Assembly (NCBI RefSeq): GCF_024320785.1
Contig: NZ_JANDBC010000001.1
Location: forward strand, 769,309-833,308
DNA from: Gracilimonas sediminicola
GTDB taxonomy: Bacteria > Bacteroidota > Rhodothermia > Balneolales > Balneolaceae
Length of the DNA stretch: 64,000 nucleotides
Direction: 5' to 3'
Shown here: positions 13,748 through 27,904 of the stretch, in pieces
Position numbering within the stretch: position 1 is the stretch's first letter
How the letters are laid out: each line of letters begins with the position of its first letter
Notes under the pieces: generated by a model
What the model saw: the letters and a program-made list of their open reading frames with translations, nothing else
What the model was told of the DNA's origin: nothing
Database searches by the model: none
Program-made: the position numbers and the translations under genes

Positions 13748-15064
<1,317 letters not shown>

Positions 15065-15081
15065 AAAACATCACCTTGTCG

Positions 15082-15154
15082 TCCCGGCATTGAGCCGGGA
15101 TATCCCATAAACAACCGAAAAAGTTTTTGAAGATCGCGGTTCTAAGCCCGCGAT
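15082..15154. repeat. two GC-rich hairpins between convergent genes
   Basis: TCCCGGC/GCCGGGA (15082-15088 / 15094-15100) and ATCGCGG/CCGCGAT (15133-15139 / 15148-15154) are perfect seven-base stems with 5- and 8-base loops. They sit between the ends of purA and the sulfotransferase-like gene. Neither is followed by a clean T-run on either strand; they look like REP-type elements that may still act as bidirectional terminators or RNA-end protectors. Confidence 0.55.
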
Positions 15155-15179
15155 GGCTTTGGGTTATAGCTTAATTTGA

Positions 15180-15908
15180 TTACTTCCCGGCGTATTCCAG
15201 CAGCTCATCATAGGCTTCCTGGCATTCTTCCAGCAGGTCTTCCAATTCCTCAGGAAAAGGCTCATTCTTGGATTTATAAGCCCGGAATCCTGTTGAGCGG
15301 TGAACATTATGGTACCAATATTTGGCCCAAACACCGTCTTCTTTACGTGGACCGGCCGGCCATTTCAGCATGGCTTCATCAAAAGGAATACCCAGTGTAC
15401 CGCATAATTCGCGAAGACGGGATTGCGGATACTGCAGAATATCTTTCGAATCCACAATGAGTGGCTTCTTGCCAATATTGTCCAGGTACTTGACCACTTC
15501 CAGGTGTTTGGCATATCCGACATCCTGCATAGTTGGGTTCTTAACCTGCTTGGCATATGAAGGCAGCATATCCTTGGGGGGACGGGTCAGGATGACGTTA
15601 ATCGTTTCTTCCAGAAAACTCCAATCCAGGTTTACCAGGTGGTGAGTCATATTCTTGAAGAAGGCGATCGGGGTATCGTAATCGCCCAGAATAATTTCAT
15701 CCACCACTTTTTGGCCATCGTTTTCCTGGCTTTTCAGTACTTCATCAGCACCGGGATGATAGTTTTTAGCATCGGTGTTTGCCAGGTAATGAGCATACAA
15801 AGGCTCATCAAAAACTGTGGAATCATCGCGCTGGGCGAAAGAATACATGAGTGCTGTTGAGATATTTCGTGGACCGCTCCACAAACAAATTCGTTTTGTC
15901 TTTAACAT
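15180..15908 (-). CDS. sulfotransferase-like P-loop protein
   Basis: A 242-residue cytoplasmic protein of the sulfotransferase P-loop fold. The 5'-phosphosulfate-binding loop is seen at the start as LWSGPRNISTALMYSF, followed by FDEPLYAHYL and later ILTRPPKDMLPSYAKQV, which fits the 3'-phosphate-binding region (R...S) of PAPS enzymes. I start it at ATG 15908, preceded by GGAG, rather than at the TTG 14 codons earlier, because the fold begins right after it. It lies 83 bases behind a class-IV aminotransferase gene on the same strand. Real sulfotransferase activity is not proven; substrate unknown. Confidence 0.75.
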   Translation of the reverse strand: MLKTKRICLWSGPRNISTALMYSFAQRDDSTVFDEPLYAHYLANTDAKNYHPGADEVLKSQENDGQKVVDEIILGDYDTPIAFFKNMTHHLVNLDWSFLEETINVILTRPPKDMLPSYAKQVKNPTMQDVGYAKHLEVVKYLDNIGKKPLIVDSKDILQYPQSRLRELCGTLGIPFDEAMLKWPAGPRKEDGVWAKYWYHNVHRSTGFRAYKSKNEPFPEELEDLLEECQEAYDELLEYAGK

Positions 15909-15991
15909 TTCTCCATTTTTTACTTTAGCGGTCAGTCCGGTCCTTCTCAAATAATCCTACTCTGCGGACGACCTGTATCTATATTAAAAAA

Positions 15992-16927
15992 TTATACTTT
16001 AACTTCATTCACTTGTGCCTCAATAGCCTGCTCATACAGTTTCTGAAGGCGTTGAGTCATGGTTCCGGGAACAGTTTCCGTAATCGTTCGGCCATCTATC
16101 CCGGTTACGGGAGTGAGTCCGCCAAAACTTCCGGTTACAAAAGCTTCATCTGCTCCATACACATCAAATAAGGAAAAGTTCTTTTGGAAACAGGGGATTC
16201 CTGCTTGTTCACAAACTTCAATCACTTTACCGCGGGTAATTCCATTCATGCAATACTGCCCGGTGGATGTCCATACTTCACCGTCTTTCACCATAAAAAA
16301 GTTGGTGGCGTTACAGGTAGAAACGAAACCGTTTACATCCAGCATCAAAGCTTCATCAGCGCCGGCTTCCAGGGCTTGGACCAGTGCCTGCACTTCATGG
16401 ATCTTGCTATGGCAGTTAAGCCGGGGATCCAGGTAATCGGGCGAACCCCGGCGAATGGTACTGGTGAACAACGTCACTCCTTGGTCTCGGCTCTCCGGGT
16501 CTGCTTTCTTATATTCTGCGATAATCACAAGATTAGGCCCTGATACGGTGAGCCGTGGGTCTTGAGATGGGGTTTTTTTGATTCCCCGGGTAAACATGAG
16601 GCGCACGTGTACGCCACCCTTCATGTCGTTGGCGTCCAGAGTTTTCCAAATGGCTTTGGTAATTTCATCGCGGCTCATGCCCAAATCCATACCCACCGTT
16701 TTGGCGCCCTGAAACAGCCGGTCATAATGTTCTTTCAAAAAGACGAGCACTCCTTTGTGCAGGCGAAATCCTTCCCAAACGCCATCCCCCACTAAATACC
16801 CGCTGTCAAAAACAGATATTTTTGCTTCGTTGCGGGAAAAAAGCTCCCCGTTCACATAAATAAGTACTTCTTCGTTACGCGGATCATAAACCGCATTATG
16901 TGTGCCGTGCGTCATGCTTTTACTCAA
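15992..16927 (-). CDS. class-IV (branched-chain-like) PLP aminotransferase
   Basis: A 311-residue fold-type IV aminotransferase. It shows YVNGELFSRNEAKISVFD at the N-terminus, the YLVGDGVWEGFR segment that contacts the cofactor, the PLP lysine K175 in NCHSKIHEV, and the phosphate-binding region GFVSTCNATNFFMV plus GSFGGLTPV. It is clearly distinct from the true IlvE at 26.8 kb, so a role in D-amino acid, aminodeoxychorismate-like or specialised branched-chain transamination is possible. The downstream neighbour is a sulfotransferase-like gene, and the pair probably functions together. Confidence 0.85.
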   Translation of the reverse strand: MSKSMTHGTHNAVYDPRNEEVLIYVNGELFSRNEAKISVFDSGYLVGDGVWEGFRLHKGVLVFLKEHYDRLFQGAKTVGMDLGMSRDEITKAIWKTLDANDMKGGVHVRLMFTRGIKKTPSQDPRLTVSGPNLVIIAEYKKADPESRDQGVTLFTSTIRRGSPDYLDPRLNCHSKIHEVQALVQALEAGADEALMLDVNGFVSTCNATNFFMVKDGEVWTSTGQYCMNGITRGKVIEVCEQAGIPCFQKNFSLFDVYGADEAFVTGSFGGLTPVTGIDGRTITETVPGTMTQRLQKLYEQAIEAQVNEVKV

Positions 16928-17077
16928 TAATGATTGCCCTCAAATAAAAGAAATATAACGCTCGGTTGCGAATTTCGTTTTTAGAGAGGTTCTGAGTAGG
17001 ATTTTACCCGTTTTCGGGCTCATTCATCAAGCACAACACCTCAAGATTCAGGCAGCCACATAAAGTTGTCGATCTCC

Positions 17078-17752
17078 CTATTCCTCAAAAACAAGAGCAT
17101 CAGGATCGGCACCCAGCTCTTTGAGATATCCCATCACGGCTTCGTTGAAAGGCATCGGACCGCAAACGTAGAATGGCTGATCAAAGTCATCTATTTGAGA
17201 TTCTAAAAACTCCTTATCGATAAAGCCATCCAGGAACAGGTGATCTCCGGAAGGTTCTTCATCCGTGATGGCGTTCACAAAATTATCTCCCAGGATGTTT
17301 TCAAACTCCTCTTTCAGGATGATATCCTCTTCTGTTTTATTGGAAAAGATGAGTTTGTTATCCCCTACTTTCCCCTTCTTATGCAGATCTCTGAAGATGG
17401 CTATAAATGGGGTTACACCAGCTCCACCAGCCAGGAACACACCTTCACCTTTATACTGAATGGTTCCCCATGCATCGTCCACAATCAGGGAATCTCCAAC
17501 TTCCAGCTTACCAAACTGCTCGGTAACCCCGTCATGATCAGGATAGATTTTAATCACAAATTCGAGGTCCGGGTCTTCATTGAGTGAGGTAAAGGTAAAC
17601 GGCCGCTTTTCGTCCCGCCAGCCATCCTTATCGATAGCAACTTCGGTAGCCTGGCCGGGTTGGAATGTGTATCCCTCAGGCTTTTCAAGGGTGAATTGTT
17701 TAACGTCGTGCGTTACGTTTTGAATATCTTTAATCTTGAGTGTATGCGCCAT
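17078..17752 (-). CDS. FAD/NAD(P)-binding oxidoreductase (ferredoxin-reductase fold)
   Basis: A 224-residue flavoprotein of the ferredoxin-NADP reductase superfamily. RPFTFTS (about 51-57) is the FAD-binding RxYS/T motif, GGAGVTPFIAI (about 106-116) binds the nicotinamide nucleotide, and CGPMPF (about 199-204) closes the domain. There is no fused iron-sulfur domain, so it must transfer electrons to or from a separate partner. The gene lies 63 bases behind the SnoaL-like gene on the same strand. Partner and physiological role are not evident. Confidence 0.85.
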   Translation of the reverse strand: MAHTLKIKDIQNVTHDVKQFTLEKPEGYTFQPGQATEVAIDKDGWRDEKRPFTFTSLNEDPDLEFVIKIYPDHDGVTEQFGKLEVGDSLIVDDAWGTIQYKGEGVFLAGGAGVTPFIAIFRDLHKKGKVGDNKLIFSNKTEEDIILKEEFENILGDNFVNAITDEEPSGDHLFLDGFIDKEFLESQIDDFDQPFYVCGPMPFNEAVMGYLKELGADPDALVFEE

Positions 17753-17815
17753 AATTCTATCTTTCTTAATCTTCGATAGTAACTACAATTATGGCTTTAA
17801 AAACATTCGCTGCAC

Positions 17816-18283
17816 TTATTGAGAACTCCGAAAAAGCCTCAGGTTCTTCATGGCTTCGGCCTGAACTTTCTTTTGCAGGAATGGAGACCAGCCCAGAATA
17901 TATCCCGGCACGCCCAATGCCATCGCTGACCATTTCCAGAAATTAAACTCATCGAGGTGGCCTGCAATCAAACCATCCTGAAACTCAAAATGAGCGGTAA
18001 TTTTGTTATGCACTTTTCTACCGGTTTTAGAGAATAAATACGCAGCCTCTATCTGAGCTGAACCTGATGAGTGATCTGCCTGAACGGAATCAAAAGACAG
18101 TTTGAATTCTTTAGCACGGCTGCAAAGCATCGTCCACATTCCGTCAATTTCTTTTTTGGAATGAAGTTCAAAAACAGGATCTCTGAAAGTGGCCTCCTCA
18201 TGATAGCAGCTTAGCATCATGTCTGCATCCAGATTTTTGAGGCCTGTATATAGGCGGGTGATTAGTTTTTCATTCTTATGCAT
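17816..18283 (-). CDS. SnoaL-like/NTF2-fold protein
   Basis: A 155-residue protein with the NTF2-like cone fold: LITRLYTGLKNLDADMML, CYHEEATFRDP and the pattern KVHNKITAHFEFQDGLI followed by HLDEFNFWKW are typical of SnoaL_2 proteins. Members act as isomerases, hydrolases or simple ligand-binding pockets, so function cannot be assigned. Its start overlaps the end of the sodium symporter gene by eight bases, indicating translational coupling. Confidence 0.8.
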   Translation of the reverse strand: MHKNEKLITRLYTGLKNLDADMMLSCYHEEATFRDPVFELHSKKEIDGMWTMLCSRAKEFKLSFDSVQADHSSGSAQIEAAYLFSKTGRKVHNKITAHFEFQDGLIAGHLDEFNFWKWSAMALGVPGYILGWSPFLQKKVQAEAMKNLRLFRSSQ

Positions 18284-19802
18284 GCTTTGATCCTCGTAGT
18301 ATTGCTGAAATTGAACCTGTGATTACAACTATTAAACTACCCACAAGTGTATAAAGTGGCCAGGCGATGGCCAGTCCGTCTCCGGGAAGTAGGTTTTGAA
18401 TCGGCCCCTGAACCATGAAAAGCAATGCGATCAACCCGCAGAAAAAGCCAATTAATGCATCTGTTTTATCCGGCTTGCTGAAAAACATGCCCAGCAGAAA
18501 TGCTCCTAATAATCCGCCATAGGTATAGGATGCTATCCCCAGCCCCAATTCCACAATGGCCGGGCGTTCGCCCCCCTGAAGCTGCAGAATCGCAAAGAAA
18601 ACAGCCGATGCCGTAAGAATTATCCCCCAGCCCATCGTAATTTTACGGGACATGGACAGGTCCTCAGCTTCGGTATTATTCTTTCCAAAGTAGGGTTTAT
18701 ATAAATCGTAGGTGGTTGAGGAAGCCAGTGAGTTCAGAGAGGAGCTCAGGCTGCTCATGGCTGCTGCAAACAGGGCGGCCACAATAAGCCCCGATACCCC
18801 AACCGGTAGCTGCTCTACGATGAATTTAGCAAATACTTCGTCAGTGGTCGCCAATCCTATTTCTGTGGCAGACACTCCCTCATAAAACATGTAAAGCAAC
18901 AACCCAATCCCCATAAAAAGAGCAAACTGAAGCATAGCTACAATTCCACTCCAGATCATCGCTTTTTGGCCGGATTTTAGATTACGAGTAGCCAGCACCC
19001 GCTGCACCAAAAGCTGATCGGTTCCATGAGAAGCCAGCGAGAATACAGCCCCGCCCACAAGTGCTGTGATTAAGGTATATGGTTGGGCGATGAATTCCCT
19101 GAAACTCATATCAAAACCAAGATTGACCAGTTGCAGCTTTTCGGCGGGCAGTTCGAATCCTGCCGGCAAATTCCCCAGTAAAACTCCTACTGCTATTAAT
19201 GCACCACCGATGTACACGATCATCTGCACGAAATCCATCCAAACCACCGCCTTGATGCCCCCAAAGAATGTATAAACCAACGTTATGGCCGTAATCACGC
19301 AAATGGACAGAATGTAGAGTTCAAGATCTCCCCAACCGGAAAAAGCACCACCTAACCGCAGAATAATGGCAAGCGGGATCGCTGTGGCAAATAGTCGGAC
19401 TCCATCGGCCAGCAGACGGGTAATCATAAAAGTGGAACTTGCCGCATTGCGCATGCCGGCACCGAATCGCTTTTCAAGAAAAGTATAAGCCGTGAACAAT
19501 TCACCTTCATAGTATTTGGGGAGAAAGAACAACGCGACGCCGATCCTGCCAATTACATATCCCACCGTTATTTGCAAAAAGGTCAGGTTCCCTCCATAGG
19601 CCACCGCCGGAATACTGATAAAGGTAAGGGTGCTTGTTTCGGTGGCTACAATGGAGAATAATACCGCCCACCATGGAATCCCTTCACCCCCTAAAAAGTA
19701 ATCTTTATTGGAAGTTTGCTTTCCGGATGACTTCAATCCCAAAAAAGCTACACCGACCAGGTAAACAACTATAACTATGTAATCGATAACAGAAAATTGC
19801 AT
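18276..19802 (-). CDS. sodium:solute symporter (SSS family)
   Basis: A 508-residue inner-membrane transporter that couples Na+ entry to solute uptake. The first helix starts FSVIDYIVIVVYLVGVAFLG and is followed by the SSS-typical SGKQTSNKDYFLGG loop, then a dozen further hydrophobic segments; GGIKAVVWMDFVQ and AAAMSSLSSSLNSLAS are family signatures (the latter contains the sodium-site serines). I start at ATG 19802, six bases after the preceding asparaginase gene, rather than 18 codons upstream inside that gene. The solute may be a product of that hydrolase, such as an amino acid or amino sugar; this is inference. Confidence 0.9.
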   Translation of the reverse strand: MQFSVIDYIVIVVYLVGVAFLGLKSSGKQTSNKDYFLGGEGIPWWAVLFSIVATETSTLTFISIPAVAYGGNLTFLQITVGYVIGRIGVALFFLPKYYEGELFTAYTFLEKRFGAGMRNAASSTFMITRLLADGVRLFATAIPLAIILRLGGAFSGWGDLELYILSICVITAITLVYTFFGGIKAVVWMDFVQMIVYIGGALIAVGVLLGNLPAGFELPAEKLQLVNLGFDMSFREFIAQPYTLITALVGGAVFSLASHGTDQLLVQRVLATRNLKSGQKAMIWSGIVAMLQFALFMGIGLLLYMFYEGVSATEIGLATTDEVFAKFIVEQLPVGVSGLIVAALFAAAMSSLSSSLNSLASSTTYDLYKPYFGKNNTEAEDLSMSRKITMGWGIILTASAVFFAILQLQGGERPAIVELGLGIASYTYGGLLGAFLLGMFFSKPDKTDALIGFFCGLIALLFMVQGPIQNLLPGDGLAIAWPLYTLVGSLIVVITGSISAILRGSKHA

Positions 19803-19807
19803 ACAGC

Positions 19808-20770
19808 TCAGATTTGATGAGAAGTCGGTTCTGCCCGGTTTCCATCTGCATTGCAAACTGAAACATCAAAGCCCTTAACAATGCTGTACCCGCCGTAAAC
19901 GCCATCTTTATTCAGAGCTATATATCCAACCTGTATATCTTTCTTGTTCGAGGAATCTCTTTCAATAATTCGCTGAATGGCAATTTTGCATGCTTCTTCC
20001 GGGGAATGACCGGCACGCATCATTTCCACAACCAAATGGCACCCCGCCGTTTTAATAACCTCTTCTCCGGCGCCGGTTGCAACAGCCCCTCCAAATTTGG
20101 GATCGATAAAAAGACCGGCTCCGATTATGGGAGAATCGCCTACACGTCCGTGCATCTTATAAGCAGCGCCACTGGTGGTACAGGCCCCACAAAGCCTGCC
20201 GTTTTTGTCCAGAGCCAGCATCCCTATGGTATCGTGGTTCTCTATATTCACTTCAAGCTTATACTCTGAAGTCTCGAGCCATTTCTTCCATTCTTTTTCC
20301 GCTGCCGGTGTAAGCAGGTTTTCCTTTTCAAATCCCTGAGAAAGAGCAAATTGCCGGGCCCCTTCCCCCACCAGCATAGCATGAGGAGTGTCCGTCATTA
20401 CTTTGCGCGCCACCGATACCGGGTGTTTGATATCCTGCAGAAAAGCTACCGATCCACATTCTCCGTTTTCATCCATCACGCAGGCATCCAGAGTTACATT
20501 TCCGTCTCGGTCGGGCCGGCCTCCATAGCCAACCGTATTATTTTTTGGGTTTGCCTCTTCCACCTTCACCCCGGCTTCCACGGCATCAAGGGCGTAGCCA
20601 CCTTTGTCTAAAATCTGCCAGGCCGCCTCATTTGCCCTTACTCCCGTTTTCCAGGTTGAAACGACCACCGGTTTCTTACCGGTTTGAACCGGTCCCGATT
20701 TTGCTTTTAAAACATTTAGTGGAAGCAACCCCAGTGCTGTGGCCTTTATAAACTCTTTTCTATTGAACAT
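19808..20770 (-). CDS. N-terminal-nucleophile glycosylasparaginase/isoaspartyl peptidase
   Basis: A 320-residue exported Ntn hydrolase that should cleave N4-(GlcNAc)-asparagine or beta-aspartyl bonds. The N-terminus RKEFIKATALGLLPLNVLKA looks like a signal sequence. The alpha chain carries STWKTGVRANEAAW and GYGGRPDRDGNVTLDA; the autocatalytic cleavage site is D180/T181 in NHDTIGMLALD, with T181 as nucleophile. GRVGDSPIIGAG and ATGAGEE complete the substrate pocket. The pattern fits glycosylasparaginases (AspGA type). Six bases separate it from the symporter gene, suggesting uptake of a product. Confidence 0.9.
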   Translation of the reverse strand: MFNRKEFIKATALGLLPLNVLKAKSGPVQTGKKPVVVSTWKTGVRANEAAWQILDKGGYALDAVEAGVKVEEANPKNNTVGYGGRPDRDGNVTLDACVMDENGECGSVAFLQDIKHPVSVARKVMTDTPHAMLVGEGARQFALSQGFEKENLLTPAAEKEWKKWLETSEYKLEVNIENHDTIGMLALDKNGRLCGACTTSGAAYKMHGRVGDSPIIGAGLFIDPKFGGAVATGAGEEVIKTAGCHLVVEMMRAGHSPEEACKIAIQRIIERDSSNKKDIQVGYIALNKDGVYGGYSIVKGFDVSVCNADGNRAEPTSHQI

Positions 20771-20827
20771 GCTATCTCCGTTAAGGTGTGCAACCTGCCC
20801 TTATTTACCCCATATTCGTCAATTCTT

Positions 20828-21412
20828 TTATCTCTTCAAAAAAGAGACAAAATTCTGAACGGCTTTCCCGCGGTGTGAAATATCATTTTTAATAGCTGAA
20901 TCCAGTTCGGCAAAAGTTTTATCGAAGCCTTCCGGCTTAAAAACGGGATCGTACCCAAATCCTTTATCACCTTTTTCTTCGGTAAGTATTTCTCCTTTAC
21001 AAATCCCTTCAAAAACATGTTCCTGATCAGGATACACGAGTGCAACCACGGTTCTGAATTGTGCTTTCCGGTCGGCTATCCCGTCTAATTCGGTCAGCAA
21101 TTTGTTCACGTTATCCTGATAGCTTGCACGCTTTCCGGCATAACGGGCGGAATACACTCCGGGTTCTCCATTCAAGGCATCCACTTCCAGGCCGGTATCA
21201 TCCGACAGAGCAGGAAGCCCGGTTTCTTTGGCCACGTATCGAGCCTTTTTGAGCGCATTCCCCTGCAGGGTAGGCTGATCTTCCACGACCTCTTCCAGCT
21301 CCGGATAGTCTTTTGTGGAAAGAACCTCAATCCCGAGAGGCCTCAGAATTTGTTCGAGTTCCTCAATCTTATGAGGGTTCTGAGATGCTATTACAAGTTT
21401 GGTCAGCTTCAC
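20828..21412 (-). CDS. rdgB: XTP/dITP diphosphatase (RdgB/HAM1)
   Basis: A 194-residue house-cleaning pyrophosphatase removing deaminated purine nucleotides. SQNPHKIEEL near the N-terminus, SDDTGLEVDALNGEPGVYSARYAG, GFGYDPVFKPEGFDKTFAEL and ISHRGKA are the canonical HAM1 blocks in order. Length is typical. Its start codon overlaps the stop of the SemiSWEET gene by four bases (ATGA-type), and the PfkB kinase gene lies just upstream, making a three-gene operon. Confidence 0.95.
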   Translation of the reverse strand: MKLTKLVIASQNPHKIEELEQILRPLGIEVLSTKDYPELEEVVEDQPTLQGNALKKARYVAKETGLPALSDDTGLEVDALNGEPGVYSARYAGKRASYQDNVNKLLTELDGIADRKAQFRTVVALVYPDQEHVFEGICKGEILTEEKGDKGFGYDPVFKPEGFDKTFAELDSAIKNDISHRGKAVQNFVSFLKR

Positions 21413-21669
21413 CCTTTCTTCCTCGGAAAAAGTTTAAAGTACAAGTTAATTCCACTCCCGATGGTAAGCAACGCGTTCAGAGCCGTAAAAACCGTATCGT
21501 CAATTAGCACGGAGTAAACGGTAAGCATCAGGCTTGATGAAAAATACATAATGATGAAGGCGATGTTCATGGAGGTACTGCCCTCTTTAATTGTTTCCCA
21601 GGTTTGAGGTATCCATGCGGCTACTAAAATGCCGAACCCGGCCCATCCTAATAATTCTATTCCTATCAT
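21409..21669 (-). CDS. SemiSWEET-type PQ-loop transporter
   Basis: An 86-residue protein with three hydrophobic helices (about 5-20, 34-54, 58-78), the exact size of bacterial SemiSWEETs that dimerise to carry sugars across the inner membrane. The PQ motif is present as WIPQTWET, and the conserved Asn of the pocket is probably in MNIAFII or ALNALL. It starts eight bases after the PfkB kinase gene, so sugar or nucleoside entry coupled to phosphorylation is plausible but not proved. Confidence 0.8.
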   Translation of the reverse strand: MIGIELLGWAGFGILVAAWIPQTWETIKEGSTSMNIAFIIMYFSSSLMLTVYSVLIDDTVFTALNALLTIGSGINLYFKLFPRKKG

Positions 21670-21677
21670 TTTCTGCC

Positions 21678-22673
21678 TTATTTTAGCTGATGTAAAATTT
21701 CCTGTGCTTCATGCCACTTCAATCGTGGCCCGTATTGTGATACAATCTTAGAGCCTGCTAAACTTGCCAGCTTCCCGGAATTTGCGAACCCAAGGTTGTT
21801 GGTGATCCCATATAGAAAAGCGCCGGCAAACATGTCTCCTGCCCCGTTGCTATCCACGGCTTTTACTTCATATGGCTCGATATCGATAAAAGTATCACCA
21901 TCAAAAATCATGGCTCCATTTCGGCCCTGGGTGATCACAAAGCGTTTGGCTTCCTGCTTCAGGTCTTCACGTGCTTGCAAGAGGTCATCCTTTCCTGTAA
22001 AGGCTTTGGCTTCTTCTTCATTACAGAACATGAGATCTACAGAAGCCCCGATTACATCTTTAAAGTTTTCTTTAAAGGCCTGAACGATAGAGGGATCAGA
22101 AAGGGTGATGGCTGTCTTCACATTATTGTTTTCCGCGATTTTCTTTGCGCGCTTCATCGCTGCCAGCCCTTCTTCTGCTGCAACCAGGTATCCTTCCAGG
22201 TACACGTACTCTGAATCTTTGATTGCCCGCTCGTCTACTTCATTCGTTGATAGTCCGGATGAAATTCCCAGATAGGTATTCATTGTTCGGTCGGCGTCTT
22301 CGGTGATCATCACCAGGCATTTCCCTGTGACTCCCTCTTCCCGCTGCTGCCGATCAAAGTTAGTGGGGATGCCGGCGTCTTCCATGTCTTTAAGGTAGAA
22401 ATCTCCGAATTCATCGGCTGCTACTTTACAGGAATAGAAGGCATTTCCACCAAACTGACTTACCGCAATAACCGTATTCGCCGCCGAACCGCCTGATTTC
22501 TTCTCCGTTTTTTGATGATCAATAGCTCCTATCAGGCGACGCTGGGTTTCTTCATCCACCAGGGTCATCAACCCTTTCTGGACATCGTGTTCCTGAAGAA
22601 AATCGGGTCTTACTTTAAACTCTAAATCTACCAGGGCATTACCAATGCCGTACACATTATACTTTTTACTCAT
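21678..22673 (-). CDS. PfkB-family kinase, adenosine-kinase-like
   Basis: A 331-residue ribokinase-fold kinase. GNALVDLEFKV near the N-terminus, GGSAANTVIAVSQFGG (PfkB signature 1 region) and AVDSNGAGDMFAGAFLYGI (signature 2 with the catalytic Asp of GAGD) are clear. The overall pattern is nearest to adenosine/sugar kinases annotated in Bacteroidota and proteobacteria. It heads the operon pfkB-SemiSWEET-rdgB; substrate adenosine or a sugar cannot be told apart from sequence alone. Confidence 0.88.
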   Translation of the reverse strand: MSKKYNVYGIGNALVDLEFKVRPDFLQEHDVQKGLMTLVDEETQRRLIGAIDHQKTEKKSGGSAANTVIAVSQFGGNAFYSCKVAADEFGDFYLKDMEDAGIPTNFDRQQREEGVTGKCLVMITEDADRTMNTYLGISSGLSTNEVDERAIKDSEYVYLEGYLVAAEEGLAAMKRAKKIAENNNVKTAITLSDPSIVQAFKENFKDVIGASVDLMFCNEEEAKAFTGKDDLLQAREDLKQEAKRFVITQGRNGAMIFDGDTFIDIEPYEVKAVDSNGAGDMFAGAFLYGITNNLGFANSGKLASLAGSKIVSQYGPRLKWHEAQEILHQLK

Positions 22674-26812: not shown

Positions 26813-27904
26813 CTAAATGCTTACCGGATGTACCCAGCCAAACTGATCTTCTTTACGACCATACTGGATATCGGTAATTTCATCGAAGCATTTCTGGGCA
26901 AATTCGCCGGGCTTCTCGCGATCCAGCTCTATAGTTTTTCCATTATGCTCAATCAGTCCAACCGGAGACACTACCGCTGCGGTACCGGAACCAAAAACTT
27001 CTTTCAGGCTTCCGTCTTCATAGGCCTCAAAAACTTCATCGATTGAAATCTTGCGTTCTTCAACGTTGTAGCCCCATTCTTTGGCTAAAGCAATCACCGA
27101 ACGGCGGGTAACACCGGGGAGAATAGAACCATTGAGTCCCGGAGTAATTAATGTGTCGCCAATCAGGAAGTGAATGTTCATAGTCCCCACTTCCTCAATA
27201 TATTTCTGTTCTTTGGCGTCTAACCAGAGTACTTGTGTAAAGCCTTTTTCTTTGGCTTTTTGAGCCGGAAGAAAACTGGCGGCGTAATTTCCGGCCGTTT
27301 TCACATTTCCGGTTCCGCCTACAACCGCACGTACATATTTTTCGGGTGTGGTCAGCGAAACGGGGTTAAAGCCTTCTGCATAGTATGCACCCACTGGTGA
27401 GGTAATAATCTGGTACGTAAATTTATCGGATGAGCGGGCCGCAAGCAGATTGTCTGAAGCAAAAATAAACGGCCTGATGTATAACGCCGTGCCGTTTTTC
27501 TTAGGCACCCACTGGTGATCTAAGCGAATCAGCGTTTCCAGAGCATCAATAAAAGTCTCGTAACTGGTTTCCGGGATACACATTCTGCGGCAGGAATGAT
27601 TGAACCGTTCATGATGCGTTTCAGGGCGATAGATGTTCACTGTGTTTTCATCCACATAAAAAGCCTTCATCCCTTCAAAAACAGCCTGCCCGTAATGTAA
27701 TACGTTAGAGGCCGGGGTAACTTCAAAAGTCCCAAAAGGTTTAATCACAGGCTCCTGCCAAACGCCTTCCGAAAACTTCATTTCGAACATGTGGTCCGAA
27801 AACTTTTTACCGAACACAAGGTTATTAAAATCAACCTCATGAATGCGGCTTTCTTCCGTTGGGTGTACAGTGATATTGGTACTTGAAATTATCTCGTTCA
27901 TCAT
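26813..27904 (-). CDS. ilvE: branched-chain amino acid aminotransferase
   Basis: A 363-residue fold-IV aminotransferase for the last step of Ile, Leu and Val synthesis. It belongs to the longer eukaryote-like/BCAT-II type: VLHYGQAVFEGMKAF, YIRPFIFASD, GNVKTAGNYAAS with the PLP lysine, QVLWLDAKEQKYIEEVGTMN and GSGTAAVVSPVG. Length is standard for this subtype. It follows ppc by 68 bases and is followed immediately by crcB. Confidence 0.95.
   Translation of the reverse strand: MMNEIISSTNITVHPTEESRIHEVDFNNLVFGKKFSDHMFEMKFSEGVWQEPVIKPFGTFEVTPASNVLHYGQAVFEGMKAFYVDENTVNIYRPETHHERFNHSCRRMCIPETSYETFIDALETLIRLDHQWVPKKNGTALYIRPFIFASDNLLAARSSDKFTYQIITSPVGAYYAEGFNPVSLTTPEKYVRAVVGGTGNVKTAGNYAASFLPAQKAKEKGFTQVLWLDAKEQKYIEEVGTMNIHFLIGDTLITPGLNGSILPGVTRRSVIALAKEWGYNVEERKISIDEVFEAYEDGSLKEVFGSGTAAVVSPVGLIEHNGKTIELDREKPGEFAQKCFDEITDIQYGRKEDQFGWVHPVSI

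Follow-up and report, generated by a model that had tools for sequence, protein, structure and literature searches.

The stretch of DNA analysed here (hereafter the window) comprises 64,000 nucleotides of the Gracilimonas sediminicola genome (contig NZ_JANDBC010000001.1, positions 769,309 to 833,308), and carries on its minus strand a gene for an aminotransferase-like protein (AT) followed, after a gap of 83 nt, by a co-oriented gene for a PF19798 sulfotransferase (ST). The AT gene occupies 15992–16915 (-) and encodes 307 residues from its likely ATG at 16915; the open reading frame (ORF) is open to a TTG at 16927, from which AT residues are numbered, and relatives start M-x-HGTHNA. The ST gene occupies 15180–15908 (-), encoding 242 residues from a likely ATG at 15908 that is preceded by GGAGAA, with the ORF open to 15950. 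An ordinary ilvE lies at 26813–27904 (-), outside the module, and scores 374.3 bits with the NCBIfam profile ilvE_II, above its cut-off of 250.05. A first-pass annotation of the window had pointed out both the adjacent, co-oriented pair, which it called sulfotransferase-like and class IV, and the separate ilvE; both observations are confirmed, and the interpretation placed on them is partly supported. The genome holds three class IV genes in all: that of AT, the ilvE, and a lysine-bearing gene on another contig, which matches best with BCAT and PabC profiles, below their cut-offs.

ST matches PF19798 (Sulfotransfer_5) with E 1e-46 (159.6 bits; cut-off 23.2). The loop WSGPRNIST (15855–15881 (-)) takes the place of the sulfotransferase 5′-phosphosulfate loop, with P13, R14, N15, S17 and T18 invariant in a 46-row alignment, whilst R109-x-P111-x5-S117 (15558–15584 (-)), the motif that binds the 3′-phosphate in sulfotransferases dependent on 3′-phosphoadenosine 5′-phosphosulfate (PAPS), is invariant in 46 of 46 rows. 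In a larger alignment R109, P111, S117, R14, N15, S17 and T18 are each present in 86/86 rows and P13 in 85/86. The names used here for the 5′-phosphosulfate loop and the 3′-phosphate motif R-x-P-x5-S, as well as the E. coli BCAT numbers E193 for the glutamate at the PLP ring nitrogen and R59 for the PLP-phosphate arginine, are those that we take to be customary. The predicted model of ST (pLDDT 95.3) is matched best in VIA by TPST structures and by the sulfotransferase domains of curacin and olefin synthase, some of these entries containing bound adenosine 3′,5′-bisphosphate (PAP), at Z scores of 14.1–14.8 (PAP-bound TPST1, 14.8; 4gox, 14.8; 4gbm, 14.7), values which describe the match of the whole fold. 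The curacin and olefin-synthase domains are also found by the ST profile search. The first 15 rows of the Foldseek list are all sulfotransferases, as are all 50 of the VIA rows shown. ST has the fold and the PAPS-binding motifs of PAPS-dependent sulfotransferases, and probably attaches sulfate.

Adenosine 5′-phosphosulfate (APS) kinase is encoded in the same genome as the window (E 5.4e-59). In a sample of 296 genomes of the window's phylum, each at least 90% complete, it is present at E better than 1e-30 in 40 of the 41 genomes with full-length ST (the exception being G036), compared to 66 of the 255 others; this limit was picked after viewing the list, and keeps 106 of the 296 genomes as against 162 at a looser one.

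By fold, AT belongs to PF01063 (Aminotran_4; E 1.2e-40, 140.2 bits against a cut-off of 28.5), and its predicted model (pLDDT 84.6) matches all 50 VIA structures shown with Z of about 30 or more, the best fit being 7z79, then 9j32. The residue aligned with the lysine that forms the Schiff base with pyridoxal 5′-phosphate (PLP) in class IV transaminases is Asn171 (codon AAC, 16415–16417 (-)), and that aligned with the glutamate contacting the PLP ring nitrogen is Thr204 (codon ACC, 16316–16318 (-)). Both substitutions are found in all 80 loci kept from a scan of named genomes (the named loci), which are the best 80 of at least 569 relatives, so that counts drawn from them speak for the nearest relatives. 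Thr204 is likewise present in 28/28 rows of the ST-linked Asn clade, as is the motif N-C-H-S-K, one of these rows (L096) coming from a genome without ST. A sister clade, 41–44% identical, carries histidine where the lysine would be and retains the glutamate (14/14 rows); in an alignment with the branched-chain transaminase 5mqz, the lysine of the latter falls on this histidine. Lysine itself occupies the position in the third class IV gene of this genome and in the comparison genes L145, L146, L190 and L191. The phosphate cup is kept in both lysine-less clades: Arg70 (16718–16720 (-)), aligned with the PLP-phosphate arginine, is invariant in a 53-row AT alignment, and R70, G229 and T231 are present in every aligned row. 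In a tree of 58 chosen AT rows, the Asn (39), His (15) and lysine (4) rows each fall on one side of a branch with starred support, although caution is warranted as the lysine rows form very long branches.

Because the Schiff-base lysine has been lost (Asn here, His in the sister clade), AT, as read from these alignments, cannot form at that position the internal aldimine of ordinary transaminases. Assignment of AT as IlvE, as a D-amino-acid transaminase or as PabC was rejected, since the lysine is absent and the protein scores below every NCBIfam equivalog cut-off (ilvE_I, 200.6 against 245.55); the PRK08320 subfamily profile likewise falls short (244.8 against 363). With an ilvE elsewhere in the window as well, the earlier judgement that a plain branched-chain role is unlikely stands. 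Its description of the protein as a class-IV aminotransferase, taken in the functional sense, is not supported, the catalytic lysine being absent, and on this side the finding is more unusual than that annotation had it. In public records such proteins are labelled aminotransferase class IV, D-amino acid aminotransferase or branched-chain aminotransferase; judged by the active site, these labels are very probably wrong. A decaying pseudogene was also considered and rejected, on low calculable ratios of nonsynonymous to synonymous substitution (dN/dS): 0.024–0.052 for AT in six of seven comparisons and 0.014–0.064 for ST in four of seven, the four remaining comparisons being incalculable through saturation and most of the others having dS above 1 (a low dS, 0.13, was obtained for L033 alone).

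The closest structural relative, an aminotransferase-like protein of Variovorax paradoxus (7z79), is 52% identical to AT (VIA Z 37.5) and also has asparagine at the lysine position; its motif is NSHSR, in contrast to NCHSK in the ST-linked clade. Relatives with the NSHS motif occur without ST in eight plasmid loci (none annotated nearby) and in three Chloroflexota genomes (no match). The entry 9j32 is, by its title, the N174K mutant of the Variovorax protein, in which a lysine has been put at this very position. Literature searches found no paper on the structure 7Z79. IlvE and the archaeal BCAT structures 5mqz, 5cm0 and 5e25 share with AT the fold and the phosphate cup at 36–38% identity; they differ in the lysine, which is present in 5mqz and presumably also in 5cm0, 5e25 and IlvE. 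These three BCAT structures align with AT only from residue 20–22 on. In the N-terminal segment of AT (16860–16915), D15 and R17 are each found in 99, and N18 in 103, of 104 rows, two of them lysine-bearing.

The two genes are inherited together. In the phylum sample, with AT counted at E up to 1e-60, full-length ST is present in 41 of 296 genomes and AT in 45; AT is found in 41/41 of the ST genomes and in 4/255 of the remainder (Fisher p 4e-46, shared ancestry uncorrected). The matched parts lie less than 300 bp apart in 38 of the 41, the exceptions being G282 (1 kb), G292 (330 kb) and G049 (on different contigs); an ST fragment in G027 and an ST match below the cut-off in G217 were left out of the 41. 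Among 96 relatives, ST matches were obtained in 33, that of G027 only as a 61-residue fragment. AT was searched for in 44 of these relatives, including all 33, and is present in 32/32 with full-length ST; it is missing from 12, namely G027 and the 11 that lack any ST match (0/11). G027 itself retains a 61-residue ST remnant (G027:C2:970150-970332) and no AT, whilst others in its genus carry both genes; this looks like a joint loss.

The same holds in a second phylum. Among 301 Chloroflexota genomes, the phylum of G356 (the metagenome-assembled genome (MAG) of locus L133), full-length ST occurs in four and AT in nine, and AT of the ST-linked type is present in exactly the four ST genomes; two of the other ATs bear the lysine, and the remaining three, all of NSHSR type, come from genomes that lack ST. 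In two of the four ST genomes the genes adjoin, and in the other two they are on different contigs; weak or partial ST matches in G569 and G637 were left out of the four. In the 80 named loci ST lies on the same strand just downstream of AT in 70, stands divergently beside it in two and is absent from eight, seven of these eight genomes carrying ST elsewhere; the STs of L095 and L097 are cut by contig ends and were counted as neighbours. By their titles, the records come from Balneolota, Bacteroidota, Chloroflexota, Gemmatimonadota, Neomarinimicrobiota and two Pseudomonadota MAGs (L079, L131). Chance adjacency of AT and ST was rejected on the co-occurrence and neighbour counts across these samples: AT and ST are co-inherited and usually adjacent, far outside the strain in which they were noticed, which supports the proposal of the first-pass annotation that they have a joint and undescribed role. 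No description of the pairing was found in literature searches, made mostly at the level of listings. An ST–AT fusion was not found in the bacterial genomes searched, the frames at the ST and AT matches being at most 347 and 385 residues long; among the ORFs called in the named loci the maximum is 346 residues for ST and 391 for AT. None of these lengths would accommodate a fusion. One viral contig scan returned 52 pattern matches and no relative. In L079 a second class IV gene (PF01063; L079:9030-9884) lies directly 3′ of the pair and groups with the lysine rows.

Where the genes are adjacent, their order is AT–ST for Asn-type pairs, except for L123 and L128, and ST–AT for His-type pairs. The two exceptions, both from Saprospiraceae, combine an Asn-type AT with a divergent ST (L123:8926-9651; L128:9101-9823), and in a 46-row ST tree these STs group with the ST of the His-type pair L150 (support 100/94), so that the split in this tree differs from the Asn/His split of AT. 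Since gene orders differ and the STs of L123 and L128 group with that of a His-type pair, the pair has been assembled more than once, its link outlasting exchanges of partner as well as rearrangements.

The co-inheritance of AT and ST across several bacterial phyla therefore probably reflects a two-step pathway. The reading that we favour, tentatively and with rather less than even confidence, is that the pair is an autonomous two-protein sulfonation module in which the AT-like partner works without transamination. ST would transfer a sulfuryl group from PAPS to a small metabolite resembling an amino or hydroxy acid, at a hydroxyl (or amine). The AT-like protein would bind this metabolite, either prior to its sulfonation or afterwards, in the pocket that once served cofactor and substrate, and there carry out a step other than transamination, which would most likely be of lyase or isomerising type, with non-covalent PLP or pyridoxamine 5′-phosphate (PMP), or with no cofactor. 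Two clades of type IV PLP-fold proteins have lost the lysine (Asn and His), and both have members tied to one sulfotransferase family. They offer a case in which the reuse of a transaminase fold for different chemistry can be tested, and the lysine-less Variovorax structure gains a biological setting to try.

Several observations weigh against the sulfonation module. Clustering of the neighbourhoods of the named loci gave no conserved third gene that points to a substrate. The genome counts are uncorrected for shared ancestry, and the dS values behind the dN/dS ratios are mostly saturated. Four genomes of the phylum sample (G166, G250, G299 and G302) have AT only, and L096 comes from a genome with AT of the ST-linked type and no ST match. 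With the E limit relaxed to 0.001, APS kinase is found in 40/41 ST genomes but also in 122/255 others. Finally, a Proteobacteria Asn clade (L142–L144 and L174–L178, on plasmids) has no ST annotated alongside and lies near transporters, mostly for amino acids; the AT-like fold can therefore work without ST. Polar amino-acid ABC transporters adjoin AT in L142 and L174–L177, and other transporters lie near the remaining plasmid copies. Further lysine-less relatives without ST are the Asn-type L159 and a His subclade comprising L158, L160 and L161. On the plasmids of Agrobacterium, Paracoccus and Pseudomonas (L142, L175 and L176) AT stands in an operon-like group with a ClC-type channel, joined in L142 and L175 by a ProC-like gene.

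The main rival, which we consider unlikely but deserving of serious weight, is that the partner of ST is a pseudoenzyme with no chemistry of its own, acting as a structural subunit or a ligand sensor by which ST is held or regulated. The loss of both lysine and glutamate in the Asn clade, the near-perfect co-occurrence with frequent tight spacing, and adjacency in both orders, as a complex would predict, are all in keeping with such a subunit. Residues on the pocket side are, however, conserved as in an enzyme (the phosphate arginine, the glycine and threonine of the G-I-T turn, and N-C-H-S-K in every row of the ST-linked Asn clade), and the His clade retains the glutamate; moreover, in a few pairs the genes are widely separated or sit on different contigs (G292, G049, G356 and G583), and lysine-less relatives exist without ST.

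It is decidedly doubtful that the AT-like protein is an unconventional but true amino-group-transferring enzyme, in which another residue or a substrate amine replaces the lysine and ST sulfonates the amino or keto acid that it makes. The fold, the phosphate cup and the substrate-side residues are retained, and a basic residue is conserved at position 169, two before the lost lysine (Lys in 14/14 His-clade rows; Arg in 33/37 and Lys in 4/37 Asn-clade rows); a His-clade protein is also nearly as close to the transaminase 5mqz (E 2.1e-56) as to 7z79 (E 1.7e-58). No single substitute lysine is, however, available in both clades, as residue 169 is mostly arginine in the Asn clade and residue 175 varies between Lys, Arg and Leu across rows, and the fact that a lysine mutant was made (9j32, by title) suggests that the natural Variovorax protein is not an ordinary transaminase.

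A bolder version of the sulfonation module can be imagined, which we hold to be improbable as a whole: ST would make a hydroxyl of an amino- or hydroxy-acid-like compound into a sulfate leaving group, the lysine-less type IV protein would expel it, and the same module would be found fused in plant plastids. AT would then be the fold-type-IV counterpart of the lysine-less PMP dehydratases. Fold type I PLP enzymes in which the lysine is replaced by histidine, such as the PMP-dependent sugar 3-dehydratase ColD, provide the working principle; ColD-type enzymes resemble the His clade in this replacement, but have a different fold and act on sugar nucleotides, and no homology is claimed. On the sulfotransferase side, the CurM (4gbm) and olefin-synthase (4gox) domains head the profile matches of ST and rank among its closest matches by fold; they sit within polyketide synthases and act on carrier-bound acyl chains, whereas ST is a stand-alone protein with an AT-like partner. 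In these systems the sulfated beta-hydroxyl is described as the leaving group for a later elimination (PMC3903477, PMC5577590), which is a precedent for sulfonation as an activating step under the favoured reading too.

The plant part of this proposal takes up an analogy drawn by the first-pass annotation and depends on the BCAL proteins, which we take to join an ST-like N-terminal domain and a class IV aminotransferase in one polypeptide. The window differs from such a fusion in having two genes, and in their order: AT–ST is the reverse of an arrangement with ST N-terminal, which the ST–AT order of the bacterial His clade would match. If the homology holds, the pair would provide a tractable bacterial system for these uncharacterised plant proteins, and if the sequence of sulfonation and elimination were true, it would reveal their function. 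BCAL2 exists by name in print (PMC11477356), and the passages available on BCAL-named plant proteins in the literature searched give no domain make-up. A Chlamydomonas ‘D-amino acid aminotransferase-like’ gene, conceivably a BCAL gene, is listed among photosynthesis-mutant candidates (PMC8448359). A survey of plant sulfotransferases that included PF19798 among its nine profiles describes, in the text available to us, only SULT, TPST and NFST classes in land plants (PMC12506393); within that text the word ‘aminotransferase’ is absent and no aminotransferase-fused class is reported in land plants, which speaks mildly against the plant fusion, unless it was filtered out.

That the P-loop protein is some other nucleotide-binding enzyme is very improbable: the loop WSGPRNIST lacks the lysine that we take to be classical in SULT enzymes, and the Foldseek list includes adenylate kinases from its 16th rank downwards, but the 3′ motif is invariant, sulfotransferases take all the better ranks in both fold searches, and APS kinase co-occurs. 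Least credible of all, and close to refuted, is the notion of stable chromosomal neighbours with no joint function, for which the same flanking genes, by eye housekeeping and mainly in Flavobacteriaceae, recur in about a third of the 80 loci (seven clusters of 26 to 29 loci each), since the genes co-occur also when apart (G049, G282, G292, G356 and G583; seven of the eight loci without an adjoining ST) and stand in different orders.

In five related Anaerolineales loci (L070, L073, L074, L076 and L086), the pair lies within a cluster of glycan type (L070:2587-17073) with genes for NeuB, a cytidylyltransferase, an SDR, a further sulfotransferase (PF00685) and a capsule-type protein, the Pfam assignments being for the copies in L070 alone. 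Three of these loci contain an ATP sulfurylase/APS kinase fusion, and a piece in L074 reads like one; the gene content suggests that sulfated surface glycans may be made near the Anaerolineales pair. ST matches also occur on four plasmids at 25–31% identity, the best being in Dolichospermum, where it lies close to an APS kinase gene within a cluster for a natural product, which we take to resemble those of saxitoxin type. On an Alkalihalophilus plasmid, a lysine-bearing stretch resembling a branched-chain transaminase (L145:8001-8843) heads an ilv operon, PLSDB's incomplete table giving no gene there.

Around the pair in the window, an Rfam search of 14000–22000 at the gathering threshold gave no match, and the promoter count is in line with that of shuffled sequence; terminator-like matches number seven against a shuffle mean of 3.3 (sd 1.8), none of them between AT and ST. 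Upstream, on the same strand (17078–20770 (-)), Pfam identifies genes for an FAD/NAD-binding reductase, a SnoaL-like protein, a sodium:solute symporter and an asparaginase-type protein, and a gene of SnoaL appearance recurs, by eye, in five loci that make up one neighbourhood cluster.

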